A stretch of DNA of 64,000 nucleotides from Arthrobacter luteolus NBRC 107841 (GTDB lineage: Bacteria; Actinomycetota; Actinomycetes; Actinomycetales; Micrococcaceae), in the NCBI RefSeq assembly GCF_001552075.1, contig NZ_BCQM01000004.1:186001-250000 (forward strand), in the 5' to 3' direction. Both the position numbers and the translations under genes were made by a program. The notes below the pieces were generated by a model. The model searched no databases and was not told the DNA's origin. It worked only from the letters and a program-made list of their open reading frames with translations. Numbering within the stretch: the first letter of the stretch is position 1; each line of letters begins with the position of its first letter. This document shows positions 17,242 through 34,583 of the stretch, one piece after another.

Positions 17242-18993
17242 CTAAATCGCAGGCACAGCGCCGGCGGCGTCCTCGTAGGCCGTGACCCCGGCTGCGTCGC
17301 GCGCCGCCACATAGCCGAAGGTCAGAGCCGGGCCCAGGTTGATTCCGCCGGCCGGGTAATGGCCGCCCATCACGCTGGCCTGGTCATTGCCCACGGCATA
17401 CAGCCCTCCGATGGGTGTGCCGGCGGCGTTGAGGACCCGGGCGCGGGAATCAACGTCAATCCCGGCAAAGGTTCCGAAGCTGCCGGGAACTACCTTGACG
17501 GCGTAGAACGGGCCCTTCTCGAGCGGGGCCAGTGACGGGTTGGGGGAGGTTTTCGGATCGCCGCCGTAGCGGTTGAAGCTGGTCTCCCCGCGGTCGAAGT
17601 CCGGATCGGCGCCGCGCCGTGCATGCTCGTTGAACCGGGCAACGGTGTCCTTGAGGCCCTGCGGATCGATTCCGCAGTTCCGGGCCAGTTCCTCCAGGGT
17701 CCGGCCCTTCTTCAGGTAGCCGGAGCGCAGGTAGGGGAACAGCGGCACGGGCAGCGGCTTGGCCATGCCGAGCGGATACCGGCGGACAAACCGGGCGTCC
17801 GCGATCTGCCAGGAGGCAACCTCTTCACCTTCGGGGGTGGCTTCGAAGAGCGCGGCAACGTAGTCGTAGTACCCGTTCGCCTCATTGACGAACCGCTTGC
17901 CGTCCCGCCGTACGCCGATGCTGCCGGGTTTCGCCCGGTCCATGATGTGCGGGAAAACCCCCTCGCGGCCGCTGGCGTAGGGGACCAGGGACACCGGGCA
18001 CCAGGCAGCGGGTGAAGCCAGATCGGTTTTGAACTGCGCTCCCGCCGCCTCGGCCAGGGTGAGGCCGTCGCCGGTTACCTCCTTCGGGGCCAGCGTCCAA
18101 TGCTCGGTGCCGGTGGGAGTTTTGGGGAACAGCTTTCGACGCCGCTCGACGTCCTGCGGGAACCCGCCGGTGGCTAGCACGACTCCGCGCCTGGCCGTGA
18201 TCACATACCGGCCGTCCGGGCCTTCCACTTCGGCTCCGGTCACGGCTCCCGCGGCGTCGGTGAGCAGCCGCCGCGCCGGGGTCGAGATCCGGATCTCGAC
18301 CCCCAGATCGTCTGCGGATTTCATCAGCCGGCCGGTCAGTGCGGTGCCGTTGACCAGCTGCATGTTCCGGCGGTGGACCAGCAGGTCGAAGACATGCGGG
18401 ACAAACCGCTTGGCTGCGTGCAGCAAACCGCTGATGCTGCCCTGGGACGCGCCGAGGAACTTCGTCAGGTCCGGTCCGGCCATGATGCCCATGCCCAGGA
18501 AGGACGTTTCGTACAGCTGGTGGCGCATCTTGGCCCGCACCTCGGGCCGGATGCGGCGCGCGTTGATCGGGGCGGGGCCCACGGAACGGTGCCCGGTGCC
18601 GGCGCCCGGCGTTTTCCCGTAGATGTCGTTGATTTTGGCGCCGGGAGTGAACTGCAGGCTGGTTTTCTGTTCGAAGAAGCCCACCATGTGCGGCACGGCC
18701 TCCAGGAACGCGTCCACGCGGCCGGCGTCGTAGTTGCCACCCAGCCGGTGGCGCAGATAGGTGCGGAACTGTTCGCGGTCCTCGTCCACGCCATCAGCCT
18801 TGGCCAGCGGGTTGCCGGGCGTCCAGGCCCACCCTCCGGACCAGGAGGTGGCCCCGCCGCAGACCGCGGCTTTTTCCACCACGGCGACTTTCAGCCCGTG
18901 GTAGGCGGCGGTGACAGCGGCGGAGAGGCCGCCGGCACCGGAACCGATCACAAGGACGTCGACGTCGAGGGGCTGGGCGGTGGTGGTGCTCAT
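17242..18993 (-). CDS. FAD-binding dehydrogenase (fumarate reductase/ketosteroid dehydrogenase type)
   Basis: The 583-residue flavoprotein belongs to the fumarate reductase/3-ketosteroid-1-dehydrogenase superfamily. The Rossmann FAD motif is GSGAGGLSAA (17-26), with GGATSWSGG following and ATGGFPQD mid-chain. The C-terminal FAD segment is GLYAVGNDQASVMGGHYPAGGINLGPALTFGY. The family inserts or removes a C=C bond next to a carbonyl. It lacks a heme or signal sequence, so it is cytosolic. It is the last gene of the operon running from the MHS transporter at 25491. The substrate is unknown. Confidence 0.85.
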   Translation of the reverse strand: MSTTTAQPLDVDVLVIGSGAGGLSAAVTAAYHGLKVAVVEKAAVCGGATSWSGGWAWTPGNPLAKADGVDEDREQFRTYLRHRLGGNYDAGRVDAFLEAVPHMVGFFEQKTSLQFTPGAKINDIYGKTPGAGTGHRSVGPAPINARRIRPEVRAKMRHQLYETSFLGMGIMAGPDLTKFLGASQGSISGLLHAAKRFVPHVFDLLVHRRNMQLVNGTALTGRLMKSADDLGVEIRISTPARRLLTDAAGAVTGAEVEGPDGRYVITARRGVVLATGGFPQDVERRRKLFPKTPTGTEHWTLAPKEVTGDGLTLAEAAGAQFKTDLASPAAWCPVSLVPYASGREGVFPHIMDRAKPGSIGVRRDGKRFVNEANGYYDYVAALFEATPEGEEVASWQIADARFVRRYPLGMAKPLPVPLFPYLRSGYLKKGRTLEELARNCGIDPQGLKDTVARFNEHARRGADPDFDRGETSFNRYGGDPKTSPNPSLAPLEKGPFYAVKVVPGSFGTFAGIDVDSRARVLNAAGTPIGGLYAVGNDQASVMGGHYPAGGINLGPALTFGYVAARDAAGVTAYEDAAGAVPAI

Positions 18994-19052
18994 GGGTGTG
19001 GATCCATTTCGGTGGTTCGGTAGTTCGGTGTGGATGGGGTGCAGCGGCGGGG

Positions 19053-19895
19053 TTAGTGGCCGTACTCGTCGGCGTCCAGGCGCGGGCCCGCCCCGGTGTC
19101 CAGGGCGTCGATGGCGGCACGCTCGCTGTCAGTGAGGACAAAGTCGAAGATGTCCAGGTTTTCGCGCTGGCGGGCGTCGCTGGCTGATTTCGGGACTGCA
19201 ATGCGGCCGGAGTCAAGATGCCAGCGAAGGACCACCTGGGCGGGCGTCTTGCCGTAGCCGGCAGCGGGTCCCGTGACGGCCGGGTGGTCGAGGAAGGCAC
19301 CGGCCCGGCCCAGCGGGCTGTACGCCCCGGTGGCGATACCGAGGGCGTTATGGTGCTCCAGCTGGCCCCGCTGCAGGTGGTGGGGATCCACCTGGATCTG
19401 GTTAACCGCCGGCTTCAGCCCCTCGGCGGCGACACGGTCCAGGTGTGCGGGCTTGAAGTTGGAGACTCCCCAGGCGCGCAGGAGCCCTTCGTCCACCAGA
19501 TCCTGCAGGCCAGCGCAGGTTTCGAGGTAGCGGTCCAGCGCGGGATTGGGCCAGTGAATAAGGAAAAGGTCCAGATAGACAAGCCCCAGCCGCTTCAGCG
19601 CTTCGCCGTACACGGTTCGGACGGCGGTGCGGGAGTGGCCGGCGAGGCTGAGTTTGCTGGTGACCCAGAGCTCGGCCCGGTCAATCCCTGCGCGGCGGAT
19701 TCCTTCGCCGACCGCTTCCTCGTTGCCGTATTTCTCCGCGGTGTCCACATGGCGGTACCCGTTGGAGATACTGCGGGCGACGGCGTCTGCGGCCTCCCGG
19801 CCCACCAGCGGCCACGTACCCAGGCCAATCAGCGGGATCACTGCTCCCGGTGCGATTTCGAGCTGCTTTTTCGGGGCGGTGCTGGAGTATGTCAT
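19053..19895 (-). CDS. Aldo/keto reductase
   Basis: This is a 280-residue (alpha/beta)8 NADPH-dependent reductase of the 2,5-diketo-gluconate reductase/AKR5-like branch. The catalytic tetrad is visible: Asp51, Tyr56 (AEKYGNE), Lys81 (TSKLSL) and His114 (LIHWPNP). The C-terminal NADPH site is IAVPKSASDARQRENLDIFDF. A GTG at 19913 overlaps the upstream stop as GTGA and is an alternative start; ATG 19895 is used because it gives the standard N-terminus. It lies within the unassigned catabolic operon. Confidence 0.9.
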   Translation of the reverse strand: MTYSSTAPKKQLEIAPGAVIPLIGLGTWPLVGREAADAVARSISNGYRHVDTAEKYGNEEAVGEGIRRAGIDRAELWVTSKLSLAGHSRTAVRTVYGEALKRLGLVYLDLFLIHWPNPALDRYLETCAGLQDLVDEGLLRAWGVSNFKPAHLDRVAAEGLKPAVNQIQVDPHHLQRGQLEHHNALGIATGAYSPLGRAGAFLDHPAVTGPAAGYGKTPAQVVLRWHLDSGRIAVPKSASDARQRENLDIFDFVLTDSERAAIDALDTGAGPRLDADEYGH

Positions 19896-19909
19896 GTCTG
19901 AGCCGGCTC

Positions 19910-20743
19910 TCACAGTTCGGGCGCCGCGGGCAGGGCAGCGGCTTTTTCGAGTACATCTACGGCGGCGGCCCGCAGCTGTTGTGCCCAGGCCAGTTCGCCG
20001 ATCCGGGCCACGGTGCTGTCAGAGGGGGTCTCCACGCTCACCGGCACGCCGGCCGGCAGCGAAGCCACGAGCTCGGCCAGGCGAAAGCCGCCGCTGCCGG
20101 GCACTGCGCGTTCGGACCGGGATTCGGTGACCAGGCCAGGCCTGTCCGCCGGCCGCTGCACCGGTCCGTCGCACAGCTGAAGCAGCGGAACCAGATCCGC
20201 ATTCTGCGAAATTTGCTCCGGAGTTCCGTCGAAACGCCGCACATGCAGGGCGTCCACGACGATCCGGCAGCCGGCGTACCGGGCAAGTCCGGCCGCCGCC
20301 GGGATGGAGTTCACCGCCTGGTAGGAGATGGGCTCCAAAGTCGGCATGATGCCGTACGCCCGGCCGTCCGCGGTCATCTGCGCCAGCGTGTCGGCGAGCC
20401 GGGACCGGTCAGGATCGCTGGCCGCGACGGTGAGCGACGAGGCACCCAGTGCCTGTCCCGCTTCCATCATGGCCAGCCAGGCGGCGCGCTGATCGCTGCC
20501 GTCCAGCAGCAGGAACTCGATGTCGTGGACCCGGACACCGGTGTCCGCCATCCGGGCGAGTGTCTCGGCCAGCAGGGGGGATCCGGGCTGGACGTTGAAG
20601 GGCTGCTCGGCGGCGGTCACCGGGCGTACCCGGGCGCCGATGAAATCAAATCCTGCCGCTGCGGCCAGGGACACCAGCTCCGGCGGGGAGGACTGCAGCA
20701 GGGACAGCTGGGCAATGCCGAGCTGGCGGCGTGCGGCGCTCAT
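19910..20743 (-). CDS. TIM-barrel sugar isomerase/epimerase family protein
   Basis: The 277-residue protein has the AP-endonuclease-2-like TIM-barrel fold of xylose isomerase-type epimerases. Strand ends resemble metal ligands of that family: Glu in PTLEPISY, Asp/His in VVDALHVRR, and Glu in VSVETPSD near the C terminus. Related enzymes include inosose dehydratases, hexulose epimerases and 3-dehydroshikimate dehydratases, so an isomerase or lyase role is possible. Its ATG overlaps the stop of the reductase gene upstream (ATGA), indicating translational coupling. Confidence 0.8.
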   Translation of the reverse strand: MSAARRQLGIAQLSLLQSSPPELVSLAAAAGFDFIGARVRPVTAAEQPFNVQPGSPLLAETLARMADTGVRVHDIEFLLLDGSDQRAAWLAMMEAGQALGASSLTVAASDPDRSRLADTLAQMTADGRAYGIMPTLEPISYQAVNSIPAAAGLARYAGCRIVVDALHVRRFDGTPEQISQNADLVPLLQLCDGPVQRPADRPGLVTESRSERAVPGSGGFRLAELVASLPAGVPVSVETPSDSTVARIGELAWAQQLRAAAVDVLEKAAALPAAPEL

Positions 20744-22839
20744 CGGGCAGCCTCCAGCGGAACCACGGCGGCCGGCGCTGAGGCAGGGCCGCCGAGCGCG
20801 GGCGTGGCACCGGAAGCTGGATCGGCACCGGCGAGGTAGGCAGCGGCCCGCTGGCCGGCGTCAAAGCCGCTCTTGATGGCGTTGGAAGCGATGGCCGGCA
20901 ACTGGTCCACCACTGTGCCGGCCAGGGTGACCGGCACTCCGGCGGCCTGGCTGAGCGCGGCCTCGCGTCCCTCGGGGCTGATAGCCGGGCTGAGCGGGAG
21001 CACGGAGCGGGAGACCAGAAGCTCGCCCGGGGCGTCCAGCCACTCCTCACCGTGGGGACCAACAATCCGGAGCCGTCCATCGGCAAATTCGGCGATCCGG
21101 GAATCCAGCCGGATCCGCACCGCCGGATTGGCCTGGAGCCGCGGGGCCGCGAGGATCTTGGCCCGGCGTCCCGCCTCAGGTGCAATCACCTCCTGCGGAC
21201 CAACCAGCAGCACCGCGGTGCCGCGGTCCGCCAGGCTGTCAGCGACACTCATGGCCACCGAGTCCGTGCCCCAGATCGTGAGGGCCGCGGGGGCGGGTTC
21301 GGTGCCGTCGAGGATGCCCTGGTGGGCCTGCAGCCAGGCACGGACGTCGGAGACCAGGGGGCCGCCGGCTCCGGCGAAACTCTGCTCCGGCCGGATCCCG
21401 CCGGTGGCGAGGACAATGGTGTCCGCTTGATGTTCGACGGCGAGCCGGTCCAGACGGGCCGTGTCCACGGCGGTGCCGAGCTGAATCTGGATACCGAGGC
21501 GCTGATTCTCCTCGGCGGCCCAGCTGGTGAAGCGGTGGAAGTCCGGCGTGGATTTCATGAGCTCGGCCTGGGCAAAGTCGCCGCCCAGCCGGGTGCCGGC
21601 GTCGAGCACCGTGACCCGGGCACCGGCGCAGGCAAGTTCGCGGGCCGCCGTCAGGCCGGCAGGGCCGGCGCCAACGACGACGGCGCGGGAACCGGGCCGC
21701 ACCACGGGCGTCGGAACGGGAGTCCGGGACCGGCCGACGGCCGGGTTGACGGTGCAGGTGACCTGCCCGATGCCGAGATTGTCGATGCAGACGTTGCAGG
21801 CGATGCAGGGGCGGTAGCGGCTGCCGTGCAGGACGGCGGGAACAAAGTCCGGGTCGGCGTGTACGGCCCGGCCGAGCGAGACGAAGTCGCACAAGCCGTC
21901 CCGCAGCACGGCGTCGATGATTTCCGGGGAGTTCAACCGGCCAGCCAGGCCCAGCGGGAGGCCGTAGCGGCGGTACTCCCGGGCGTAGCTGCCCAGGACC
22001 CCGGGCGCCCATTCGCCGGACTGCACAATCCATTCCCCGGCCTCGTAGCTGCCGGCGGAGAGGTCGATGAAGTCCAGGGCGTCAGTGTTGACCCGGTCCA
22101 GAACGGAGAGCTGGCCAGCGGCATCAAGTCCGCCCTCGACGCCTTCCACGACGGAAATACGGATCCCGACGACGGCCTGCGGAACCCGGGCGCGGATTTC
22201 GTCGATGACCAGGTTCACGAACGCCTCACCGGCACCGAACTCGTCCCGGCGCCAATTGGTGCGGGGAGACATGAACTGGTGGACCAGGTAGCCGTGGCCG
22301 CCGTGGATATTGATGATGTCGAAACCGGCCTCAACGGCCCGGCGCGCTGCCTCCCCGTACGCGGCGGCCAGTTCACGGACCTCCTCCGTGGTCAGCTCGC
22401 GGGGCAGTTCGCCGCCGGCAACGCCGCAGGCAGACGGTGACGGCGCCACGTTCTTGAATCCCGTGACTTCGGCCTGTGCGGTGCGGCCGCCATGGTTGAT
22501 TTCGACGGCGGCCAGGGCGCCCTCCGCATGGACGGCGTCGGTGAAGATCTTCATACCGGGAACGGTGCGGTCGGTGTGCAGGCCCAGCTGATGGGTGCGC
22601 CCCTTGCCGTCAGCGCGGACGTACGTTGCTTCGGTCGTCACGATTCCGAGCCCCGCCCTGGCCCGGGTGACCAGGTAGTCCAGGTACTGTTCGGTCATCC
22701 GGCCGTCGGTGGTTCCGTAGTTGCGCTCCATCGGCGAGGAGGCGAGCCGGTTCCGCAGCACCACCGGGGTGCGTCCGCTGCGGCCGAGTTCGAGCGGTTG
22801 CCGGGCATGGGCTGAGCCGCCTTGGGGTGTGTGGTTCAC
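20740..22839 (-). CDS. NADH:flavin oxidoreductase of the dienoyl-CoA reductase/trimethylamine dehydrogenase type
   Basis: This 699-residue protein joins an N-terminal old-yellow-enzyme FMN barrel to a C-terminal FAD/NAD(P)-binding half. The barrel shows RNRLASSPMERNYG, INHGGR and HGGHGYLVHQFMSP. The cluster motif CIACNVC with a further Cys eleven positions on (QVTCTVNP) provides four 4Fe-4S ligands in the trimethylamine-dehydrogenase spacing. The second half starts at VVVGAGPAGLTAA. Such enzymes reduce C=C bonds of enals, dienoyl-CoAs or cyclic enones, or demethylate amines. It starts at GTG with an AGGAGA site. Confidence 0.88.
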   Translation of the reverse strand: MNHTPQGGSAHARQPLELGRSGRTPVVLRNRLASSPMERNYGTTDGRMTEQYLDYLVTRARAGLGIVTTEATYVRADGKGRTHQLGLHTDRTVPGMKIFTDAVHAEGALAAVEINHGGRTAQAEVTGFKNVAPSPSACGVAGGELPRELTTEEVRELAAAYGEAARRAVEAGFDIINIHGGHGYLVHQFMSPRTNWRRDEFGAGEAFVNLVIDEIRARVPQAVVGIRISVVEGVEGGLDAAGQLSVLDRVNTDALDFIDLSAGSYEAGEWIVQSGEWAPGVLGSYAREYRRYGLPLGLAGRLNSPEIIDAVLRDGLCDFVSLGRAVHADPDFVPAVLHGSRYRPCIACNVCIDNLGIGQVTCTVNPAVGRSRTPVPTPVVRPGSRAVVVGAGPAGLTAARELACAGARVTVLDAGTRLGGDFAQAELMKSTPDFHRFTSWAAEENQRLGIQIQLGTAVDTARLDRLAVEHQADTIVLATGGIRPEQSFAGAGGPLVSDVRAWLQAHQGILDGTEPAPAALTIWGTDSVAMSVADSLADRGTAVLLVGPQEVIAPEAGRRAKILAAPRLQANPAVRIRLDSRIAEFADGRLRIVGPHGEEWLDAPGELLVSRSVLPLSPAISPEGREAALSQAAGVPVTLAGTVVDQLPAIASNAIKSGFDAGQRAAAYLAGADPASGATPALGGPASAPAAVVPLEAAR

Positions 22840-22864
22840 GTGGTTCTCCTTGGAAGAGGCGCGG

Positions 22865-24031
22865 CTAGCCGGCCGCCGCGGCGGAGGCGGCCAGAGCTGC
22901 GGCGCGGGCGACGACGGTTCCGGGGGCCGTGGGACCATCCGCCGGGAACGGTGCGAAGCGGACCGGCAGGCCGGTGCGCGCTGATTCATAGACCGCGAGC
23001 AGGATCCGGAGGGCATTGTTGGCGTCCCGGCCGGTGATTGCCGGGTCGTTGCCGCCAGCCAGGGCCTCGACAAAATCGCGGATCTGGCTGGTGTGGTGCG
23101 GAATGAGCTGGGCATTGATGGAGGTCAGGTCAACGTTTGCCTCGGCATCGCTGGGGTGCACGGGGGTGGTCTCCACGGTGCCGCCGGCGGCCATGAGGGT
23201 GACCCTGCCGTCGGTTCCCTCGGGGAACTCACTGAGCTCGGCGGTGGCCCCGGTGGAGCCGGTGATGCGGATCTGGACGCCCAGTGAGGGAGAGGCAGCC
23301 GTGGAGGCCGACAGGGTGGCGATGGCACCGGAGGTGAACTTCAGGACGGCGGTGGCGGAGTCTTCCACTTCAATATGCTCGCCGTGTTTGAAGGTATTGA
23401 TCGCGCCGTAAACCTCGGCGACGCCGCCCATGTACCACTGGAGGAGGTCGATGTAGTGGATTGCCTGGGTCATCAGCACACCGCCGCCGTCGGTCTGCCA
23501 GGTACCCCGCCAGGCATCCGCCGAATAGTAGCTGGGATCGCGGTGCAGCAGCACGGAAACGTGTCCGATCACGGGCGTTCCCAGGGTTCCGTCGTCGATC
23601 ATGGTGCGGACGCGCTGCGCCGCCGGCCAGAAGCGGCGCTGGAAGAGGACACCGAGCTTGACGCCCGCGGCGCTGCACGCAGCCACCATGCGTTCAGCGG
23701 AGGCGAGGTCAACTGCGATGGGTTTCTCGCACAGGACATGCACGCCGGCTTCGGCCGCCTCGAGGACCACGGCTTCGTGGGTGGGATGCGGGGTGCAGAC
23801 CGAGACGATGTCGAGTCCGAGGGCCAGCAGCGCCGCGACGGAGTCGACGGCGTTCGGTACCGCCCAGGCGGCAGCCGTCGCCTGGGCGCGGCCAAGGTCC
23901 GTGTCACAGACGCCGACGACTTCTGCCGCGTCCAGTGCCGCGAAGGCCTCGAGATGGTTGCGGCTGATCATGCCGCAGCCAACGATGCCGACGCGCAGCC
24001 GGCGCTGGGGGACAGGGAGCTGGTGGTTCAC
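22865..24031 (-). CDS. Gfo/Idh/MocA family oxidoreductase
   Basis: The 388-residue NAD(P)-dependent dehydrogenase has a Rossmann N-terminal domain with VGIVGCGMISRNH (14-26) and the family motif CEKPIAVD (Lys103 as catalytic base), then the C-terminal sheet domain with GGGVLMTQAIHYIDLLQW. Family members oxidise polyols, inositols and glycosides at a ring carbon. It starts at GTG 24031 and lies 25 bases before the flavin oxidoreductase gene in the same operon. The substrate is unknown. Confidence 0.9.
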   Translation of the reverse strand: MNHQLPVPQRRLRVGIVGCGMISRNHLEAFAALDAAEVVGVCDTDLGRAQATAAAWAVPNAVDSVAALLALGLDIVSVCTPHPTHEAVVLEAAEAGVHVLCEKPIAVDLASAERMVAACSAAGVKLGVLFQRRFWPAAQRVRTMIDDGTLGTPVIGHVSVLLHRDPSYYSADAWRGTWQTDGGGVLMTQAIHYIDLLQWYMGGVAEVYGAINTFKHGEHIEVEDSATAVLKFTSGAIATLSASTAASPSLGVQIRITGSTGATAELSEFPEGTDGRVTLMAAGGTVETTPVHPSDAEANVDLTSINAQLIPHHTSQIRDFVEALAGGNDPAITGRDANNALRILLAVYESARTGLPVRFAPFPADGPTAPGTVVARAAALAASAAAAG

Positions 24032-24108
24032 GGGGAAATGCCTTTCGCAAAGGAGCGTGGGGTGGCTTGGGAGGGGGAAGCTGGCGGGGCCAGGGGAGGG
24101 GGGCGCGG

Positions 24109-25491
24109 CTAGGAATTTCCAGCCGGCTGGGGGTTGCCCAGTTCCTTGAGCGGAGTGAAGGCGGTCTCCCGGGCCGTGGCGATGGCGATGCTGGAGATCG
24201 CCACGCAGGTTACGGCGAACACGGCCACCGGCACCCAGCCGTTGACGCCGTCGCCGGCCAGAAGGGTGGCAATAGCCGGGGCGAACCCGGTGAGGACCAG
24301 GCCGAACTGGTTGCCGATCGCCATGCCCGAGTAGCGGACCGGCGCGGCGAACATTTCGGGGAAGAAGACCGTCCAGACGCCGTTCCAGCAGGAATAGAAC
24401 AGGGACATGTTCAGGAAGCCGAACAGGAAGATCAAGCCAACGTTCTGGTCGCTGATGGCCCAGAAGTATCCGAAGATGGTGATCGAACAGCCCACGGCGC
24501 CGGTCAGCAGAACGGGTTTGCGGCCAAAGCGGTCAGAGAGCATACCGGCCAGGGGGATGGTGAACATGGAGAGTCCTACGGTCACCGCATTAATGGTCAG
24601 CATCACCGCACGGTCCAGGCCAACCTGGGGGCCGGTCGCGTACGCCAGGGCATAGACCGTGAAGATCGTCTGCATCACGGAGTAGAGGCTGATGACAACG
24701 ATCCGCAGGACGTCCCGCCACTGGGTGCGGAGCACAATCGCGGCGGGCGTGCTGGGTTTGGAGGCCTTCTCCTTCGCCGCCTCTTCCTTGACCTCTTCAA
24801 AGGCCGGGGTTTCATCGAGATGGGTCCGGACCCAGTACGCAACGGCCAGGACGACCACGGAAAGCCAGAACGGAATGCGCCAGCCCCAGCTCATCAGGGC
24901 CTCTTCGGGAAGGGATGCGATGGGAATGAAAACGATGGTGGACAGCACCATGCCGGAGGCGTAGCCGGTCATCACGAAGGAGGTGAAGAAGCCGCGGCGG
25001 CCTTCGGGCGAGTGCTCAACTGTCAGGGTTGAGGCACCGGCGGCTTCAGCCCCGGCGGAGAATCCCTGGGCGAGACGGCCGATGACCAGCAGGATGGTGG
25101 CCCACCAGCCAACCTGTTCGTAGGTCGGGAGGAAACCAATCATGAGCGAGGCGACCCCCATGATGACCAGGGTGATCATGAGGGCCTTCTTGCGGCCGAC
25201 CCGGTCGCCGACGTGGCTCATCACGATGCCGCCCAGCGGGCGGGCGAGGTATCCGACGCCGAACGTTGCCATCGAGCCCAGCAGGGCGATAACAGGATCG
25301 CTTCCGGGGAAAAACAGCTTGTTGAAGACCAGCGCGGCGGCGGTGCCGTAGATGAAGAAGTCGTAGTACTCGAGTGTGGAACCGAGGAATGAGGCCAGCG
25401 CAGCCTTGCGGGGTGTCTGGCGCCCCGCGGAATCCGCCGGGCTCTCCGACGGCGGCGTTGCCGTTGCGGTGCTGGGGCCGTTGTGGGCCAT
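24109..25491 (-). CDS. MFS transporter, metabolite:H+ symporter (MHS) family
   Basis: This 460-residue, 12-helix proton symporter is of the MHS type (KgtP, ShiA and ProP relatives). The family signatures are FLGSTLEYYDFFIYG at the first helix, GDRVGRKKAL between helices 2 and 3, and the repeated SDRFGRKPVLL in the second half. The ATG at 25491 follows an AGGAGA site. MHS members carry organic acids such as shikimate, ketoglutarate and dicarboxylates, so the operon substrate is probably acidic. It is the first gene of the operon, preceded by a tandem repeat. Confidence 0.9.
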   Translation of the reverse strand: MAHNGPSTATATPPSESPADSAGRQTPRKAALASFLGSTLEYYDFFIYGTAAALVFNKLFFPGSDPVIALLGSMATFGVGYLARPLGGIVMSHVGDRVGRKKALMITLVIMGVASLMIGFLPTYEQVGWWATILLVIGRLAQGFSAGAEAAGASTLTVEHSPEGRRGFFTSFVMTGYASGMVLSTIVFIPIASLPEEALMSWGWRIPFWLSVVVLAVAYWVRTHLDETPAFEEVKEEAAKEKASKPSTPAAIVLRTQWRDVLRIVVISLYSVMQTIFTVYALAYATGPQVGLDRAVMLTINAVTVGLSMFTIPLAGMLSDRFGRKPVLLTGAVGCSITIFGYFWAISDQNVGLIFLFGFLNMSLFYSCWNGVWTVFFPEMFAAPVRYSGMAIGNQFGLVLTGFAPAIATLLAGDGVNGWVPVAVFAVTCVAISSIAIATARETAFTPLKELGNPQPAGNS

Positions 25492-25573: not shown

Positions 25574-25615
25574 GGGACCTGGATCACAACGCTATGGGAC
25601 CTGGGTCACAACGCT
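25574..25615 (-). promoter_or_regulatory. Tandem 20-bp direct repeat upstream of the MHS operon
   Basis: GGGACCTGGATCACAACGCT (25574-25593) recurs at 25596-25615 with one change (A to G). The period is 22 bp, so both copies lie on the same DNA face. They sit about 85-125 bases before the transporter start and 50 bases after the IclR gene stop. The repeat is seen directly; a role as IclR operator is an inference. Confidence 0.65.
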
Positions 25616-25665: not shown

Positions 25666-26469
25666 CTAGGCCCGGGCCGTCCGCAGCCAGGGCCGGGAAC
25701 CATAGGGGCGGCGTTCTGCGCCCATGGTGCGGGAGAGTGTTCGCCCGGCGGCGACCAGCACCGGAATGATGAGCTCCGGGGCGTCTTCGGACAGCGGCGT
25801 GACGACGCTGACTGCCCCGATGACCTTATTGGCGGGCCCCAGGACCGGCACGGCATAGGAAACATTGTCTGCGACCAGGACCCCGGCCAGCCGGGCGAAG
25901 CCGCGTTCCCGGATCAGCGCGAGATGCGCCCGGATCCTGGCAGGGTCGGTCTCTGTGGCGGCGGTGGTCTGTTCCAGCTCAGTGGAGAGCATCCGGTTCT
26001 GGACGTCGAGGGGCGCGTGGGCCATCATGGCCAGGCCCGGCGACGTGTTGTGCGCGTCCAGCCGGCCCGCGACCTCGGAGAGGATGACGGCGCTGCCGTG
26101 CTGGTCCAGGCGCTCAACGTAGAGCACCGTGAAGTTCTCGAAGCGGGGAACGGCCAGGGAGACATGCTGGCGCACAGCGGCATGGATGCCTTCCAGGACC
26201 GGCAGCCCCCGCCGGCGGAATTCCTCGACGGGGTTGGACCGGGCTGCCAGTTCCCACATCTTGGCACCGACGCCGAAACGTCCGTCCTTGTCCCGTTCCA
26301 GCAGGCCGGCGGCCAGCAGATCGCTGGCCAGCCTGTGGGCAGTACTGCCGGGAAGACCGGTGGAGCGGGAAAGCTCACTCATGGTCAGCAGCGGAGCGTC
26401 CTTGCTGAACGCACTGAGGATCTTGACGACACGGTCGATCACCGATTCGCCCGACTCTGAGTTCGCCAC
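25666..26469 (-). CDS. IclR family transcriptional regulator
   Basis: This 267-residue regulator has an N-terminal winged helix (VIDRVVKILSAF, then LLTMSELSRSTGLPGSTAHRLASDLLAAGLLERD) and a C-terminal GAF-like effector domain (about 80-250) with VLYVERLDQHGSAVILS and APLDVQNRML. It starts at GTG 26469 with an AAAGGGA site. It precedes the MHS operon on the same strand and is its likely regulator; IclR effectors are usually small organic acids or aromatics. It is separated from the fucose-pathway SDR gene by 46 bases. Confidence 0.92.
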   Translation of the reverse strand: MANSESGESVIDRVVKILSAFSKDAPLLTMSELSRSTGLPGSTAHRLASDLLAAGLLERDKDGRFGVGAKMWELAARSNPVEEFRRRGLPVLEGIHAAVRQHVSLAVPRFENFTVLYVERLDQHGSAVILSEVAGRLDAHNTSPGLAMMAHAPLDVQNRMLSTELEQTTAATETDPARIRAHLALIRERGFARLAGVLVADNVSYAVPVLGPANKVIGAVSVVTPLSEDAPELIIPVLVAAGRTLSRTMGAERRPYGSRPWLRTARA

Positions 26470-26515: not shown

Positions 26516-27301
26516 TCAGGCCGGGGCGGCCGCCGGATCCGGGGTGGCCGCCGGGCGCAGCCGCAGCCCCTGCATCCCGCCGTCGACCGCCAGGGACGTT
26601 CCCGCCGTCGAGCCGGACAATGGGCTGGCCAGATAGGCGACGGCGCCGGCCACCTCATCGGCAGAGACCAGCCGGCCGTGCGGCTGGCGGGCGTCCAGTG
26701 CTGCCCGTTCCGCCGCTGGATCGGCGGCGGCATCCAGCAGCCGGCCGACCCACGGAGTGTCGGCGGTACCCGGATTGACCGCGTTGACGCGGATGCCTTC
26801 GCGCAGGTGGTCGGCCGCCATGGCCAGCGTCAGTGACAGCACTGCGCCTTTGGTCGCGCTGTAGAGGGCCCGCTCCGGCAGCCCTGCCGTTGCGGCGATC
26901 GAGGACGTATTGACGATCACCGCCGCGGAGGAACGCCGCAGCCAGGGCAGTGCGGCCCGGGACACCCGCACCATGCCCAGCACATTCACGTCCCAGACCC
27001 GGTTCCATTCCTCATCGGTGTTGGCCTCGACCGTGCCCTGTGCACCGATTCCCGCGTTGTTGATCACCACGTCCAGCCCGCCGAGCGCCTCCGCGGCCTG
27101 CGCGACGGCGGCGCGCACCGAGGCGTCATCGCTGACATCACAGCGGATCCCCAGATGCGGGCTGCTTCCCGGCGCCGGCGGGTTGAGGTCCAGGACGGCG
27201 ACCTTGGCCCCGAGGCCGGCCAGCCGGCCGGCGACCGCTGCTCCGAGCCCGGAGGCTCCTCCCGTGACGATGGCGGCCAGGCCGGTCATTTCCCCGCTCA
27301 T
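26516..27301 (-). CDS. SDR oxidoreductase, probable 2-keto-3-deoxy-L-fuconate dehydrogenase
   Basis: This is a 261-residue short-chain dehydrogenase with TGGASGLG (13-20), NNAG (81-84), Ser in NTSS and YSATK (Tyr147, Lys151). By context it would oxidise 2-keto-3-deoxy-L-fuconate at C4 with NAD+, the fifth step of the non-phosphorylative L-fucose route. Its ATG overlaps the stop of the fumarylacetoacetase-family gene (ATGA), so the two are translationally coupled. Family membership is certain; the substrate is inferred from neighbours. Confidence 0.88.
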   Translation of the reverse strand: MSGEMTGLAAIVTGGASGLGAAVAGRLAGLGAKVAVLDLNPPAPGSSPHLGIRCDVSDDASVRAAVAQAAEALGGLDVVINNAGIGAQGTVEANTDEEWNRVWDVNVLGMVRVSRAALPWLRRSSAAVIVNTSSIAATAGLPERALYSATKGAVLSLTLAMAADHLREGIRVNAVNPGTADTPWVGRLLDAAADPAAERAALDARQPHGRLVSADEVAGAVAYLASPLSGSTAGTSLAVDGGMQGLRLRPAATPDPAAAPA

Positions 27302-28197
27302 TGGGTATCTCCTGTCTGTGGGTGGTGGCCCGGGACGGCAGCGAAGAACTCCTGCCGCTGGGTTCCCAGGCCGTCGATTTCCAGTTCTGCCAGGTCCCCG
27401 GCCGCCAGGTAGGGAAACCGTCCGGACAGCGCCACACCCTCCGGGGTGCCGGTCAGGATCAGGTCGCCCGGCTCCAGCAGCATGTACTGGCTTACGTGGT
27501 GGACCAGGACGGCAGGGTCGAAGAGCATGTCCGACGTTTTGGAATCCTGCCGCACCTGGCCGTTGATCCGGCTGCGGATGCCCAGTGCCGACGGGTCCAG
27601 CTCATCGGCGGGTACCAGCCACGGGCCCACCGGGGTTGAGGCCGGCAGGGATTTTCCCTTGGTCCACTGGCCGGCGTCGCCGGGAATCTGATAGGCGCGC
27701 TCTGAGAGGTCGTTGGCCACCGTGTACCCGGCGATGACCCCGGCGGCGTCCTGCGGCGAGGCGAGGTAAACGGTCGGGCGGCCGATCACGATTCCCAGTT
27801 CCACCTCCCAGTCGTATTTCCGGGCGCCCGGGGGGATGGGGGCGGGATCGTAGGGCCCGGCGATGGTGTTGGCCGGTTTGAGGAACACCACCGGGATGCG
27901 CGGTGGTTCGGCACCGGACTCGGCAGCATGGGCGGCGTAGTTCATGCCGATGCAGATGATGGAGCCGGGCCGGGCGATCGGTGCCCCGATCCGCAGGTTT
28001 CCGGGATCCGCAAGCTCCGGGAGGGTGCCGGCAGCCAGGGCGCGGCGGGTGGCTTCGATTCCGCCCGCGGCGAGGAATGCGCCGTCGACGTCCGCAGTCA
28101 GCGGGTCCAGGTCATAGGTTCGCTCGATGCCGCCGGAGTCGGCCGCCAGGACGGCCGGGCGCTCACTGCCAGCGGGACCTAACCGTACAAACTTCAT
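27298..28197 (-). CDS. Fumarylacetoacetate hydrolase family protein, probable 2,4-diketo-3-deoxy-L-fuconate hydrolase
   Basis: The 299-residue enzyme has an N-terminal extension (1-70) and the FAH catalytic domain: CIGMNYAAHAAE, metal ligands Glu131/Glu133 in DWEVELGIVIG, Asp163 in ANDLSER, and the closing GDLILTGTPEG. By analogy with the Xanthomonas-type pathway it would cleave 2,4-diketo-3-deoxy-L-fuconate to pyruvate and L-lactate. The ATG at 28197 has an AAGGA site. It is divergent from the fuconate dehydratase gene across a shared regulatory region. Confidence 0.9.
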   Translation of the reverse strand: MKFVRLGPAGSERPAVLAADSGGIERTYDLDPLTADVDGAFLAAGGIEATRRALAAGTLPELADPGNLRIGAPIARPGSIICIGMNYAAHAAESGAEPPRIPVVFLKPANTIAGPYDPAPIPPGARKYDWEVELGIVIGRPTVYLASPQDAAGVIAGYTVANDLSERAYQIPGDAGQWTKGKSLPASTPVGPWLVPADELDPSALGIRSRINGQVRQDSKTSDMLFDPAVLVHHVSQYMLLEPGDLILTGTPEGVALSGRFPYLAAGDLAELEIDGLGTQRQEFFAAVPGHHPQTGDTQ

Positions 28198-28267
28198 TGC
28201 TGTGTCCTTGCCTCGTTGCCGTTACGGAGCCCCGCAGGCAACCGAGCTCAACGGCACCATACGGAGT

Positions 28268-28350
28268 GAACATCCGAACTATCTGGGGTTCTGGGTCCAG
28301 AGTCTACGGGAAAATCAATGATTGACAACATAGACATCCGATGTTTAGGG
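28268..28350. promoter_or_regulatory. Divergent fucose promoter with ACATCCGA operators
   Basis: The perfect palindrome ACATC-C-GATGT (28334-28344) lies inside the 17-base spacer between TTGACA (28322-28327) and a weak TTAGGG -10 (28345-28350) reading toward the dehydratase gene. A second copy, AACATCCGAAC, is at 28269-28279 nearer the divergent hydrolase gene. The same core occurs before the FadR-type regulator gene at about 36361. Placement within the promoter predicts repression by steric block. Confidence 0.6.
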
Positions 28351-28396
28351 TCGGTGAAGCGTCAACCAGTTACCACCGAACACGGGAGAGCCGAAC

Positions 28397-29719
28397 GTGA
28401 GCACCATTACCGCCGTCGAGACCAGCGACGTCCGCTTTCCGACCTCCGTGGAGCTGGACGGATCGGACGCCATGAACCCCGATCCCGACTATTCCGCTGC
28501 CTATCTGGTGATCCGGACTGACAGCTCCGACGGACTGGAGGGGCACGGCTTTGTGTTCACCATCGGGCGCGGCAACGAGGTGGAGGCGGCCGCAATCCAG
28601 GCCCTCGCCGGCCACCTGCTGGGGCAGAACTGCGAGGAACTGCTCGCGGATATGGGCGGCACCTGGAAGATGATGGTCCACGATTCGCAGCTGCGCTGGC
28701 TGGGACCTGAAAAGGGCGTGATGCACATGGCCATCGGCGCTGTGGTGAATGCTCTCTGGGACCTCAAGGCCAAGCGGGCAGGCCTTCCCCTGTGGCAGCT
28801 CCTGGCGCGGATGAGCCCGGAGGAAATTGTTGCCCTGGTGGATTTCCGCTATCTCAGCGACGCACTCACCCCGGAGGAAGCGCTGGCCATCCTGCACCGG
28901 GCGGCACCCGGCCGGCAGGAGCGGGAAACCACGCTCCTGGCCGAGGGATACCCCGGTTACACCACCACGCCGGGTTGGCTGGGCTACTCGGACGAACGGT
29001 TGATCCGGCTTTCCGGTGAGGCCGTCCAGGACGGCTTCGGGCAGATCAAGCTCAAGGTCGGTGCGGACCTCGACGACGACATCCGCCGGCTCCGCGCTGC
29101 CCGGGCCGCCGTGGGGCCCGATGTCCGGATCGCAGTGGACGCGAACCAGCGCTGGGACGTGGACACCGCCGTCGACTGGATCCGGCAGCTGGCCCCCTTC
29201 GATTTGGCCTGGGTGGAAGAACCCACCAGCCCGGACGACGTCCTGGGCCACGCAGCCATCGCCCGGGCCATCGCCCCGGTCCGGGTGGCCACCGGCGAGC
29301 ACGTGGCCAACCGGGTGGTCTTCAAGCAGATGCTGCAGGCCGGATCGCTGCAGGTCCTGCAGATCGACGCCGCCCGCGTGGCCGGGGTCAATGAGAACGT
29401 TGCCATCCTGCTCCTGGCCGCTAAATTCGGGGTCCCGGTCTGCCCGCATGCCGGCGGGGTCGGGCTCTGCGAAGCGGTGCAGCACCTGTCCATGTTCGAC
29501 TTCGTGGCCGTCTCCGGAGAGAAGGAAGACCGGGTCATTGAGTATGTGGACCACCTCCACGAGCACTTTGTGACGCCCGTCGATGTCCGCGAAGGCCGGT
29601 ACTGGGCCCCGCTTGCTCCCGGCGGCGGGTCCCAGATGCTCGCAGCGACGCTGCAAACGTACGCTTTTCCGGACGGACCGGCCTGGACCGCCGGAATCGA
29701 ACAGGAGATGGCGCACTGA
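28397..29719 (+). CDS. L-fuconate dehydratase (enolase superfamily)
   Basis: This 440-residue enzyme would dehydrate L-fuconate to 2-keto-3-deoxy-L-fuconate. The mandelate-racemase-type features are present: the KxK base motif IKLKVG (about 216-221), metal ligands in [20 protein letters not shown] and ATGEHV, and the general-acid loop [11 protein letters not shown]. The segment [16 protein letters not shown] is characteristic of the fuconate dehydratase subgroup rather than rhamnonate dehydratases. It starts at GTG with a GGGAGAG site. It heads a seven- to eight-gene operon. Confidence 0.92.
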
Positions 29720-29720
29720 C

Positions 29721-30032
29721 ATGGAACGCATCGCACTGCACACCCGGCTAAAGCCGGGACGGGAAGCGGAGTACGACGCCGTGCACGCCCGGATCCCGGC
29801 GAACCTGGACGCCGCCCTGCGCGAGGCAGGGGTTTCCAGCTGGCGGATCTGGCGCAGCGGACTGGACCTCTTCCATGTAGTGGAAGCCGATGACTACGCC
29901 GCCATGCGCCGGTTCCTCGCCTCCCACCCGGCCAACCTGCCCTGGCAGGCCCAGATGGCGGAACTGCTGGACGTGCAGGACGACTACTCCGGAACCGGCC
30001 GGGGCATCAACCAGGTGTGGGAGCTGCCATGA
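29721..30032 (+). CDS. L-rhamnose mutarotase family protein, probable L-fucose mutarotase
   Basis: The 103-residue protein matches the RhaM/DUF718 dimeric alpha/beta-barrel mutarotases. It opens with RIALHTRLKPGREAEYDAVH, has WRIWRSGLDLFHVVEADDY in the middle, and ends with the C-terminal MAELLD and W residues. It would equilibrate alpha and beta anomers of L-fucose before dehydrogenation. It starts one base after the dehydratase stop, and its stop overlaps the next start as ATGA. Confidence 0.9.
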   Translation: MERIALHTRLKPGREAEYDAVHARIPANLDAALREAGVSSWRIWRSGLDLFHVVEADDYAAMRRFLASHPANLPWQAQMAELLDVQDDYSGTGRGINQVWELP

Positions 30033-30991
30033 CCACCGCAGAGGTGGGGCCGCTCGGGTTCGGGTGCGCCAGCATCGGCAATCTCTACCGGGAAATGTCC
30101 GACGCCGACGCCGCCGAAACGCTGCAGGCAGCCTGGGACGGCGGCAGCCGGTACTTCGACACTGCGCCGCACTATGGGCTGGGCCTGTCCGAGGAGCGGC
30201 TGGGCCGGTTCCTGGCGGACCGCCCGCGGGACGGTTTCCTGGTCTCCACCAAGGTGGGCCGCCTGCTGGTGGAGAACCCGGAGTTTTCCGCCGGCCAGAA
30301 GGACGACGAGGGCTTCGCCGTGCCGGCCACGCTCAAGCGGCAGTGGGATCCCAGCGAAGCGGGCATCCGCCGGTCGCTGGAAGACTCCCTGACCCGGCTG
30401 GGCCTGGCGCGGGCGGACATTGTCTTCCTGCACGACCCCGATGCCTACGATCTGGCGGCCGGGATCGAACAGGGGCTGCCGGTACTGGAAAAGCTGCGCG
30501 CCGAAGGAACCGTGGACGCGGTCGGCGTCGGCGCGAACTCCGCCGAGACCCTGCTGGCCTGCATCGAAGCTGCCGAGCTGGACTACATCATGCTTTCCGG
30601 CTGCTATACGCTGCTGGATCAGCCCGCCGCGCGCGAACTGCTGCCCAAATGCCTGGCAAAGGGCGTGAAGGTCATCAACGTAGGCGTCTACAGCACCGGC
30701 ATCCTCGCCCAGCCGCAGGTCCCGGCGCAGGCACACTACAAGTACGCCCCGGCGTCCGCGGAGGTGCGGGCCAAGGCCGCGCAGATCGCCGCTGTCTGCG
30801 GGCGTTTCGGCACCGATCTGCCCACCGCCGCACTGCACTTCAGCCTGCGGCATCCGGCCGTGGCGGCCGTCGTCACCGGAGCCTCCAGCGCAGCCCAGGC
30901 CGCACAGAACGCGGCCCGCCTCCAGGCCGGGGTTCCCGAAGAGCTGTGGACGGCGCTCGCCGCAGAGGAGCTGATTCCGTATGACTCGTGA
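30029..30991 (+). CDS. Aldo/keto reductase, probable L-fucose dehydrogenase
   Basis: The 320-residue reductase resembles the D-threo-aldose 1-dehydrogenase/L-fucose dehydrogenase branch. The opening is LGFGCASIGNLYREMSD, with Asp and Tyr in YFDTAPHYGLGLSEE, Lys in VSTKVGRLL and His in FLHDPDAYD. It would oxidise the anomeric carbon of L-fucose to the lactone using NAD(P)+. The ATG overlaps the mutarotase stop by four bases, and the gene end overlaps the lactonase start by eleven. Confidence 0.87.
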   Translation: MTTAEVGPLGFGCASIGNLYREMSDADAAETLQAAWDGGSRYFDTAPHYGLGLSEERLGRFLADRPRDGFLVSTKVGRLLVENPEFSAGQKDDEGFAVPATLKRQWDPSEAGIRRSLEDSLTRLGLARADIVFLHDPDAYDLAAGIEQGLPVLEKLRAEGTVDAVGVGANSAETLLACIEAAELDYIMLSGCYTLLDQPAARELLPKCLAKGVKVINVGVYSTGILAQPQVPAQAHYKYAPASAEVRAKAAQIAAVCGRFGTDLPTAALHFSLRHPAVAAVVTGASSAAQAAQNAARLQAGVPEELWTALAAEELIPYDS

Positions 30992-31925
30992 GAACGGAAC
31001 CGGGGCCGTCACCCACCGCCTCGACGCGCATCCCGCCCCGCGCCTCGACGCGCACCTTCACCTGTGGGACCTTTCCGCCGGTGGATACCGCTGGCTGGAA
31101 CAGGCCGAGCCGGAACTTCGCCGCAGTTTCCTCCCCGGCGAAGCGGGGCAGCTGCTGGACGCCGCCGGAATCGACGGAGCCGTGCTGGTGCAGGCCGAAG
31201 ACAGCCTCCGGGACACCGCCTACCTGCTCTCGGTGGCTGCCCGGCACAGCTTCGTGCGGGGCGTCGTCGGCTGGATCCAGCTGGACACTCCCGCTGCCGC
31301 AGCCGAACAGCTGGGCGACTGGAGCCAGGACTCCGCATTTGTGGGTATCCGGCACCTGGTCCATGATGATCCGCGCCCGGACTTCCTGCAGCTGCCCGCC
31401 GTCCGGGCTTCACTCTGCCTTGTGGCCGAGGCCGGGTTTTCCTTCGACATTCCGGATGCCTTTCCCGGGCACCTGGACCAGGCTTCGCAGCTGGCAGCCG
31501 CGCTGCCCGGGCTGCGAATCGTCGTCGACCATCTGGGTAAACCGCCCCGCGGAGCCGGGGCCGAGCGGGAGGACCGCTGGGAGCGGCAGCTGAGGCAGGC
31601 CGCGGAGCTGCCCAACATCACCGCCAAGGTTTCGGGACTGCGTACCTCCGGCGCCGGCTACACCATCGAGGAGCTGCGCCGGACGTGGGAGATTGCCCTG
31701 GACGCTTTTGGCCCCGAACGGCTGCTTTATGGCGGGGACTGGCCGGTCAGCGGTCCGGACCGGTACGGCGAAACACTGAACGTGATCGAGGCACTGGCCG
31801 CAGAGCTGTCCCCGGCCGAACATGCAGCCCTCATGGGCGGCAACGCCGCCCGGATCTACCGGCTGCCGGCGGCGGAAACCCGGCGTGAATCAGGGCATGA
31901 GATGAAAGCAGGCAGCCATGAGTGA
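30981..31925 (+). CDS. Amidohydrolase family protein, probable L-fuconolactonase
   Basis: This 314-residue enzyme belongs to the COG3618 amidohydrolases that hydrolyse sugar lactones. It shows RLDAHLHLWD with metal-binding His25 and His27, GVVGWIQLD, VGIRHLVHDDP, VVDHLGKPP and the C-terminal Asp in LLYGGDWPVS. Its product would be L-fuconate, the substrate of the dehydratase three genes earlier. Overlaps with both neighbours (11 and 8 bases) support one tightly coupled transcript. Confidence 0.9.
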   Translation: MTRENGTGAVTHRLDAHPAPRLDAHLHLWDLSAGGYRWLEQAEPELRRSFLPGEAGQLLDAAGIDGAVLVQAEDSLRDTAYLLSVAARHSFVRGVVGWIQLDTPAAAAEQLGDWSQDSAFVGIRHLVHDDPRPDFLQLPAVRASLCLVAEAGFSFDIPDAFPGHLDQASQLAAALPGLRIVVDHLGKPPRGAGAEREDRWERQLRQAAELPNITAKVSGLRTSGAGYTIEELRRTWEIALDAFGPERLLYGGDWPVSGPDRYGETLNVIEALAAELSPAEHAALMGGNAARIYRLPAAETRRESGHEMKAGSHE

Positions 31926-33426: not shown

Positions 33427-34487
33427 GCACGGTAAATAAAGCACCAGCGGCTCCTGCGGGAAGCCCGCAGCCGCAGCCGGGAGGCCCCGGAAGAATCCGC
33501 AGCGCCCTGGCCGTCACCAGCCCGGGCCTGCGCGTCCGGTTCCAGACCTCGCTGCAGCAGCTGATGGCGTTCGGCTCCCTGATCGTCCTGGTCATCCTCT
33601 TCGGCATCCTGAACCCCCGGTTCCTGCAGCCCACGAACCTCTCCGACATCCTGCTCTCCACCGTGGTCATCGGGCTCCTGGCCCTCGGCGCCACCTTCGT
33701 GATCGTTACCGGCGGTATCGATCTCTCCGTCGGCACGGGCATGAGCCTGTGCTCGGTGATGACCGGTGTGGTGCTGACCAACCTTGGGATGCCGCTGATC
33801 TTCGGAGTGCTCGGCGGGATCCTGGCCGGCGCCCTGATGGGAGCCGTCAACGGGTTCTTCGTCTCCTACCTGAAAATTCCGCCCTTCATTGCCACTCTGG
33901 CCATGATGATGGTGGCCCAGGGACTGGCCCTGGTGATTTCCGGAACAAAGCCGATCTACTTCAACGACACCCCCGGGTTCAGTGCCCTGGCGCTGGGAAA
34001 ACCGATTGCCGGACTGGTGATTCCGAATGCCGTCTTCATCTTCTTCGCAGCCGCCGTCGTCGCCGGAATCCTGCTCAGCCGCACCCTGATCGGCCGGTAC
34101 ACGTTCTCCATCGGCAGCAATGAGGAAGCCACGGCGCTCTCCGGGATCAACGTGCGCAAGTGGAAGCTGCTCATCTACACGCTCGCCGGATCCTTCACCG
34201 GCCTCGCCGGTGTCATCATCGCAGCCAGGCTCAACTCGGCGCAGCCCGGACAGGGCATGGGGTACGAACTGCAGGCCATCGCGGCCGTCGTCATCGGCGG
34301 CACGTCCCTGGCCGGCGGCAAGGGCTCGATTATCGGCACCGTCATCGGTGCGCTGATCATGTCGGTGATGACCAACGGGCTGCGGGTGATCTCGGTTCCG
34401 CAGGAATGGCAGAACGTGGCGATCGGCGTCGTCATCCTGATTGCCGTCTACCTGGACATGCTGCGCCGGAAGGAGAACAGCACGTAG
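33423..34487 (+). CDS. Sugar ABC transporter permease
   Basis: The 354-residue membrane protein is of the RbsC/BPD_transp_2 family. A Pro/Ala-rich cytosolic leader of about 45 residues precedes eight to ten helices, from FGSLIVLVILFGILNPRF onward. The signature TGGIDLSVGTGMSLCSVMTGV and the EAA-like region GSNEEATALSGINVRKWKL are present. It would form the channel of the fucose importer. Confidence 0.94.
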   Translation: MSTVNKAPAAPAGSPQPQPGGPGRIRSALAVTSPGLRVRFQTSLQQLMAFGSLIVLVILFGILNPRFLQPTNLSDILLSTVVIGLLALGATFVIVTGGIDLSVGTGMSLCSVMTGVVLTNLGMPLIFGVLGGILAGALMGAVNGFFVSYLKIPPFIATLAMMMVAQGLALVISGTKPIYFNDTPGFSALALGKPIAGLVIPNAVFIFFAAAVVAGILLSRTLIGRYTFSIGSNEEATALSGINVRKWKLLIYTLAGSFTGLAGVIIAARLNSAQPGQGMGYELQAIAAVVIGGTSLAGGKGSIIGTVIGALIMSVMTNGLRVISVPQEWQNVAIGVVILIAVYLDMLRRKENST

Positions 34488-34583
34488 CCCCACGCTCCCG
34501 GGGTGTTCCCGTCCCCCAAACCTCCGAGGCAGTACAACGCTCTTCAACCACTCAACGGTTCTTCCAACAAAGGAGTTTGAGAA

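Follow-up and report, generated by a model that had tools for sequence, protein, structure and literature searches.

A six-gene operon of Arthrobacter luteolus with a proposed role in the aromatisation of hydroxylated cyclohexanecarboxylates to protocatechuate

The stretch of DNA analysed here, called the window, comprises 64,000 nucleotides of contig NZ_BCQM01000004.1 of Arthrobacter luteolus NBRC 107841 (assembly GCF_001552075.1, positions 186,001 to 250,000). It carries an operon for a transporter and five enzymes (Table 1), for which a role in the conversion of a ring acid to protocatechuate is proposed below. A previous reading, made from the sequence only, had described a six-gene operon with an MHS symporter, a Gfo/Idh/MocA dehydrogenase (hereafter Gfo), a TIM barrel, an aldo/keto reductase (AKR), an ene-reductase and a ketosteroid-dehydrogenase-like (KSTD-like) flavoprotein. 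This description was borne out: all six open reading frames (ORFs) are intact and uninterrupted on the minus strand in the gene order given there, and the Pfam domain assignment agrees for each protein, the TIM barrel matching AP_endonuc_2 at 37 bits (cut-off 31.1). Calculated from the coordinates, the spacing between neighbours is 77, 25, -4, -4 and 59 bp, i.e. the genes are tightly packed, where the AKR is counted from a GTG start, although an ATG 18 bases further in could serve instead. A GTG start behind AAGGAG is also seen in the ene-reductase. It also holds true that the operon contains neither a dehydroquinate dehydratase nor a ring-cleavage gene. In a Pfam scan of the operon no AroE-type dehydrogenase and no two-domain QsuB were found, so that it is not a canonical qsu/qui operon.

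Table 1. Features of the operon and of the region upstream of it (window coordinates)
Feature	Position	Strand	Pfam match or remark
MHS-type metabolite/H+ symporter	24109-25491	minus	Sugar_tr/MFS_1
Gfo/Idh/MocA dehydrogenase, proposed ring-hydroxyl oxidase	22865-24031	minus	GFO_IDH_MocA
FMN/Fe-S/FAD ene-reductase	20740-22839	minus	Oxidored_FMN + Pyr_redox_2
Xylose-isomerase-like TIM barrel, proposed dehydroshikimate-dehydratase-type lyase	19910-20743	minus	AP_endonuc_2
Aldo/keto reductase (AKR), accessory	19053-19913	minus	Aldo_ket_red
KSTD-like flavoprotein (DES), predicted FAD-dependent ring desaturase nearest ChcC2	17242-18993	minus	FAD_binding_2
IclR-family regulator, likely controller of the operon	25666-26469	minus	IclR_C + HTH_IclR
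Candidate IclR operator, palindrome near TTCCCGTTsAACGGGAA	25623-25639	.	2 mismatches in the window copy
Two 20-bp direct repeats, 22 bp apart	25574-25615	.	possible second regulatory element, weak

The lyase and the flavoprotein

The structure model of the TIM barrel was confident (pLDDT 94.8). Its top Foldseek matches were 2g0w, which is Lmo2234 of Listeria (E 3.6e-15, 23% identity), and then 5hmq, which is QuiC1; the sequence profile ranked the same two first. Ten active-site residues of QuiC1 are listed in PMC7442255. Seven of these ten are identical in the window protein, where E137, D164, H167, Q189, S208, R212 and E238 correspond to E134, D165, H168, Q191, S206, R210 and E239 of QuiC1. 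All listed positions but Leu97 were compared, and at the two others I139 replaces Leu136 and a His aligns with Arg64. The seven residues are invariant in 21 aligned TIM rows, save the Ser (17/21). By model, Foldseek matches and these residues, the window protein is a TIM barrel with active-site residues of the 3-dehydroshikimate dehydratase QuiC1, and it is proposed to be a lyase of this type.

A glycoside with a reducible aglycone had been named as the other possible substrate in the sequence-only reading. In such a 3-keto-glycoside or glucuronide route the aglycone would be released by the TIM barrel once the Gfo protein had oxidised a sugar acid at C3, and it would then be modified by the flavin enzymes. 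The Gfo protein, with 3q2k (181.8 bits) and 3q2i (146.4 bits) as nearest solved chains, also matches DgpA (101 bits) and a glucuronide-3-dehydrogenase (85.5 bits), and the TIM profile weakly matches the 3-keto-glucoside 4-epimerase 6wn6 (E 0.0075). However, the TIM barrel has a Gln at the position where IolI and 3u0h align a His, a Gln that Lmo2234 shares in the aligned metal site, and it combines this with the Ser/Arg pair of QuiC1. In the DgpABC C-glycoside system a small DgpB-type partner is present beside the TIM barrel, whereas the gaps of the packed operon hold no extra gene (no search with a DgpB-type family model, and none beyond the operon, was made). The QuiC1-type residues, together with the links to AroE and protocatechuate described below, are the reason why a glycoside or C-glycoside route was not our first choice; with a ChcC2-like flavoprotein in the operon as well, it is considered highly improbable.

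The flavoprotein, referred to as DES, reaches the cut-off of the PRK12839 model (NF009476; 1043 bits, cut-off 940). On the models shown for named enzymes it scores best with ChcC2 (NF053677; 519 bits, below the cut-off of 900, on which the ChcC2 of host contig C20 scores 1002), as compared with 310 bits for ChcC1. According to the name of its model, 4-oxocyclohex-2-ene-1-carboxylate 5-dehydrogenase, ChcC2 acts on 4-oxocyclohexenecarboxylate; the product is 4-hydroxybenzoate. In a tree of 44 proteins, 27 rows from Actinomycetota and Pseudomonadota including the window DES formed one set (SH-aLRT 96) beside the host ChcC2, and a second flavoprotein of the relatives, FAD2, grouped beside the host ChcC1. 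Two further rows labelled DES, second copies of Halomonas, fell with ChcC2 outside this TIM-linked set. The tree sampled 26 of the 80 loci of the wider scan described below and 4 plasmid loci, short or weak ORFs being skipped; it was made by a quick search and its ChcC1 and ChcC2 branches are long.

The best solved relatives of DES are ketosteroid dehydrogenases (7p18, 302 bits), which would fit the breakdown of a steroid or terpenoid by a 3-ketosteroid dehydrogenase. However, the ketosteroid dehydrogenase models shown all remained below cut-off for DES (PRK12844, 449 of 789 bits; PRK07843, 425 of 788; PRK12845, 334 of 793), whereas PRK12839 was reached and ChcC2 scored above each of them. The tree, which included no ketosteroid dehydrogenase of known function, likewise puts DES beside ChcC2. 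Given the scores below cut-off this route was rejected, and it is hardly credible.

Flavoproteins of this kind were also seen in other settings. At L158:5020-6501 a further one is related to DES (34% over part), and it adjoins transport genes at L158:6680-9893 that look, judged from the protein starts, like the tripartite-tricarboxylate type. KSTD-like flavoproteins cluster with a small YciI, NIPSNAP or Dabb family protein at L023:1575-1865, L054:9264-9875, L058:7847-8167 and L156:8041-8370. In a record labelled Klebsiella pneumoniae (L058:6063-9855) two flavoprotein genes of a related cluster are split into several frames.

The symporter scores 384.5 bits with TIGR00883 and 342 bits with the shikimate transporter model PRK09952, both below cut-off. 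The ene-reductase (TIGR03997, 295.9 bits, below the cut-off of 793) is of the mycofactocin-OYE/BaiCD/dienoyl-CoA reductase type, with 6qkg and 1ps9 as solved relatives, and its four-cysteine motif C-x2-C-x2-C-x10-C has identical spacing in the eight relatives that were compared. The AKR is DkgA-like (232 bits, below the cut-off of 425).

Conservation and protocatechuate dioxygenases

Of 245 genomes of the family, 44 contain a match to the TIM barrel (E <= 1e-15); they represent 16 of 32 genera. The gene neighbourhood was compared in two sets of loci, which overlap in organisms and are not independent. For the first set we chose 32 loci of about 20 kb from 50 listed TIM places; two genomes supply two loci each, and L048 to L050 surround weaker TIM matches. 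The ORFs were obtained with a codon-usage script that missed some genes, as the TIM protein was clustered in 23 of the 32 loci although each had been fetched by it. In these loci, which exclude the window, the DES family, here taking in also a second flavoprotein type (DESb), was found in 31, Gfo in 26, MHS in 25 and an AroE-type dehydrogenase in 18, and the ene-reductase, AKR and IclR in 11 each. The AroE-type member that was scanned, from L022, exceeded the cut-off as a shikimate dehydrogenase (387 versus 235 bits).

The second set consisted of the best 80 of 198 loci around TIM relatives from a wider genome scan, 12 of the 80 being shorter than 19 kb. They belong to Arthrobacter, Kocuria, Brevibacterium, Corynebacterium, Mycobacterium, Caballeronia, Halomonas, Gilliamella and others. 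A protein of the DES type with at least 150 bits was present in 66 of them, and 60 had a copy no more than 3 kb from the TIM gene; with at least 80 bits Gfo was found in 57, MHS in 53, AroE in 38, the ene-reductase in 35 and AKR in 34. Records of a plasmid collection add loci of Rhodococcus, Paraburkholderia and Klebsiella whose gene sets overlap with these. Strains that carry the cluster include Paenarthrobacter aurescens TC1 (L072) and Arthrobacter globiformis NBRC 12137 (L067). In relatives AroE and sometimes QsuB are among the neighbours of the cluster. The neighbourhood thus recurs, which had been suggested as a check, and TIM barrel and DES form the core of the gene set while ene-reductase and AKR are optional.

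The beta subunit gene of protocatechuate 3,4-dioxygenase (pcaH) was present in 160 of the 245 genomes. TIM orthologues were defined by a best E below 1e-60, which retained 41 of the 44 genomes (G011, G037 and G176 were dropped). In the first test, with pcaH alone, the gene was found in 36 of these 41 genomes and in 124 of the 204 others (p 6e-4); with all 44 TIM-positive genomes the counts are 38/44 versus 122/201. A strong match to LigB (near 300 bits) occurred in 11 of the 245 genomes, among them all five orthologue genomes that have no pcaH, as compared with 4 of the 80 others without pcaH. Three of these five LigB proteins were scanned, and each scored above cut-off as protocatechuate 4,5-dioxygenase. 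Either pcaH or a strong LigB was present in 41/41 orthologue genomes versus 128/204 others (Fisher p 5e-8), LigB having been added and its threshold set after it was seen which genomes had no pcaH. Since G011 and G176 have pcaH and G037 only a strong LigB, counting all 44 gives 44/44 versus 125/201. Two genomes, G096 and G123, have ligJ-K-I-AB-C genes beside the cluster, about 2.4 kb beyond its DESb gene. HpaD, included as a control (40/41 versus 185/204, p 0.21), is uninformative because it is near ceiling, and homogentisate dioxygenase was not found in any of the 245 genomes at E 1e-30.

The host itself has related genes on other contigs. Contig C2 encodes a QsuB-like protein (583 bits with the QuiC model, cut-off 1200; 59% identity to QsuB of the relatives) and an AroE-type, QsuD-like dehydrogenase (PRK12549, 354 bits, cut-off 235), with MHS and IclR genes nearby. 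Contig C20 (L156 5445-13320) encodes ChcC1 (1017 bits) and ChcC2, both above their cut-offs, together with MHS, IclR, SDR, AKR and Dabb genes, and contig C1 carries pobA and the protocatechuate 3,4-dioxygenase genes. The window symporter is 63% identical to the transporter of the ChcC1/ChcC2 cluster versus 44% to the one by the QsuB-like gene, and for the window IclR these values are 43% and 26%.

These data bear on two further explanations. The operon could be a second, isofunctional quinate/shikimate operon, in which Gfo or AKR acts as quinate/shikimate dehydrogenase and the TIM barrel simply as a dehydroshikimate dehydratase of the ordinary kind, DES and the ene-reductase being accessory. 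The QuiC1-type residues, the AroE and occasional QsuB neighbours in relatives and the resemblance, below cut-off, of the symporter to the shikimate transporter would all suit such an operon. However, the host already has the QsuB-like and QsuD-like genes, the TIM barrel differs from QsuB at R38 and R170 (see below), and DES is present in more of the 80 loci than AroE, 66 at 150 bits versus 38 at 80 bits, although quinate and shikimate need no desaturase. We regard this explanation as rather unlikely. Alternatively, a different alicyclic acid might give another hydroxybenzoate (4-hydroxybenzoate, 3-hydroxybenzoate or gallate), with protocatechuate formed later or never. The substrate in the name of the ChcC2 model and the presence of pobA in the host are consistent with this, but a lyase with the residues of a dehydroshikimate dehydratase suits a 3,4-dioxygenated ring and homogentisate dioxygenase was, as said, not detected in the family genomes at that threshold (a negative that does not extend to gentisate, gallate and other routes), which makes this alternative improbable.

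Regulator and neighbouring genes

The six genes had been delimited correctly in the sequence-only reading, which missed the IclR gene and the palindrome upstream of them. The best NCBIfam model of this IclR protein is PcaR/PcaU/PobR (89 bits, below the cut-off of 284.75). As the gene adjoins MHS also in relatives that do not have the fucose-type genes found upstream here, it likely belongs with the operon and is its probable controller. Allowing at most 2 mismatches, the palindrome occurred at 20 sites in 19 of the 80 related loci and at 0 sites after one Markov resampling of these loci. For 18 of these 19 the position was compared, and in each the palindrome falls into the gap between IclR and MHS, upstream of the transporter; L085 has one further site outside this gap. 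The direct repeats are less convincing: their pattern was derived from the data themselves, 9 of 100 window shuffles hold at least 2 matches at <=3 mismatches, and in the nearest relative (L021) just one copy is intact. On host contig C1 (L157:9323) a palindrome, TTCTCATTCAATGAGAA, with 4 mismatches from the proposed operator, lies by another IclR gene, next to pobA.

Beyond the regulator, positions 26516-35555 of the window contain a probable L-fucose/L-rhamnose-type oxidative sugar pathway adjoining the operon, with genes for an SDR, an FAH-family hydrolase, an enolase-superfamily dehydratase, a RhaM mutarotase, an AKR, a fuconolactonase-like amidohydrolase and a sugar-binding transport protein; scores with the specific NCBIfam models all fell below cut-off. 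The SDR, FAH and enolase genes were set aside as operon members because of the rarity of FAH (2 of the 80 loci) and of the enolase (1 of 80), while IclR and MHS stay paired without these genes.

Proposed route and known systems

Our preferred reading, to which we give a probability of about 0.6 as regards substrate class and end point, is that the operon imports a shikimate- or quinate-like hydroxylated cyclohexanecarboxylate and aromatises it to protocatechuate. A polyhydroxylated ring acid of this kind had been the first of the two substrates named in the sequence-only reading, and it is supported by the QuiC1-type residues of the TIM barrel, the ChcC2-like DES, the closeness of symporter and IclR to those of the host ChcC1/ChcC2 cluster, and the AroE and protocatechuate links. 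That reading had missed, besides the IclR gene, these links and the QsuB/QsuD-like, ChcC1/ChcC2, pobA and pca genes of the host. What was observed are the genes present, their conservation and linkage, the matching residues and the co-occurrence; from these we infer the following reactions, order and substrate. After import by the MHS symporter, a ring hydroxyl would be oxidised to a ketone by the Gfo protein, which the AKR, or the AroE-type enzyme in relatives, may help or replace. The TIM barrel would then dehydrate the beta-hydroxyketone in the manner of dehydroshikimate dehydratase, and DES would take off two hydrogens to give the aromatic ring; the order of these last two steps may be swapped. 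Protocatechuate would subsequently be handed to pcaGH, or to ligAB in some relatives. For a saturated ring that lacks a 1-hydroxyl, a ketone plus one dehydration and one desaturation are just enough to reach the aromatic state, and therefore the substrate would be two hydrogens more reduced than shikimate. A more reduced substrate is also favoured because shikimate and quinate need no desaturase. Dihydroshikimate is our first guess, offered with considerable doubt. Both dihydroshikimate and 3,4-dihydroxycyclohexanecarboxylate are products of lactic fermentation.

Several observations weigh against this proposal. The ene-reductase fits nowhere in the scheme, the window operon has no AroE gene, and a second dehydroshikimate dehydratase would be redundant because the host holds QsuB-like and QsuD-like genes elsewhere. 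In the lyase, R38 and R170 are invariant in the 21 TIM rows but were not found in 4 QsuB rows, and the window protein has no match to any NCBIfam model at E 1e-3, QuiC (NF042435) included; a distant relative from L050 matches QuiC at 2.4e-9, but its 36 bits fall far short of the cut-off of 1200. The TIM substrate therefore probably differs from that of QsuB, and the R38/R170 difference points to the same chemistry on another substrate. Fourteen of the 80 loci have no protein of the DES type at 150 bits, and on an Arthrobacter plasmid a TIM relative with 39% identity is surrounded by sugar/inositol-type genes, DES being absent. Apart from the late choice of LigB, the excess of protocatechuate dioxygenases is much weaker when stratified by genus (Cochran-Mantel-Haenszel p 0.039; 258 of 20000 within-genus shuffles). 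Moreover, in the 7 TIM-orthologue genomes with a strong LigB it is near the cluster in 2 only, being on another contig in G187 and about 100 kb or more away in the other 4.

Among the papers listed by searches of the open-access literature (PubMed Central), none appears to describe this gene set, and no characterised cluster of these six genes was among them; close homology of all six proteins to such a cluster had been named as refuting the idea of an undescribed pathway. It is possible, and we advance this tentatively, that the operon represents an undescribed third aerobic route to protocatechuate from reduced shikimate-family acids, with a dehydroshikimate-dehydratase-like lyase and a ChcC2-like desaturase, widespread in Actinomycetota and Pseudomonadota and regulated by IclR in the group of the window. 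The enzymes belong to known superfamilies, and the logic mixes two known pathways. If true, dehydroshikimate dehydration and cyclohexanecarboxylate desaturation are brought together in a single gene set of wide distribution, a likely function can be given to FAD and TIM-barrel proteins that bear generic names, and many bacteria are predicted to eat reduced shikimate-family acids. The desaturases and lyases could then be useful for making aromatics from alicyclic acids.

Three known systems resemble the operon. The closest solved structure to its TIM barrel, Lmo2234 (2g0w), shares the Gln of the metal site at 23% identity; we take it to be encoded in a QuiR-controlled operon, and it may be the enzyme called QuiC2. 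With the aerobic ChcC1/ChcC2 aromatisation of cyclohexanecarboxylate (NF053676, NF053677) the operon has in common an MHS importer, an IclR regulator, a KSTD-like ring desaturase and an AKR, but it adds the dehydratase-like TIM barrel and Gfo and has one desaturase only, which is below the ChcC2 cut-off. With qsuABCD/qui (QsuB, QuiC1) it shares an acid importer, a ring-hydroxyl dehydrogenase, a TIM lyase with the same residue set and, likely, protocatechuate as product. In contrast to qsuABCD/qui its lyase is single-domain and distant from QsuB, it has no AroE-type or dehydroquinate dehydratase gene, and it adds a desaturase and an ene-reductase.

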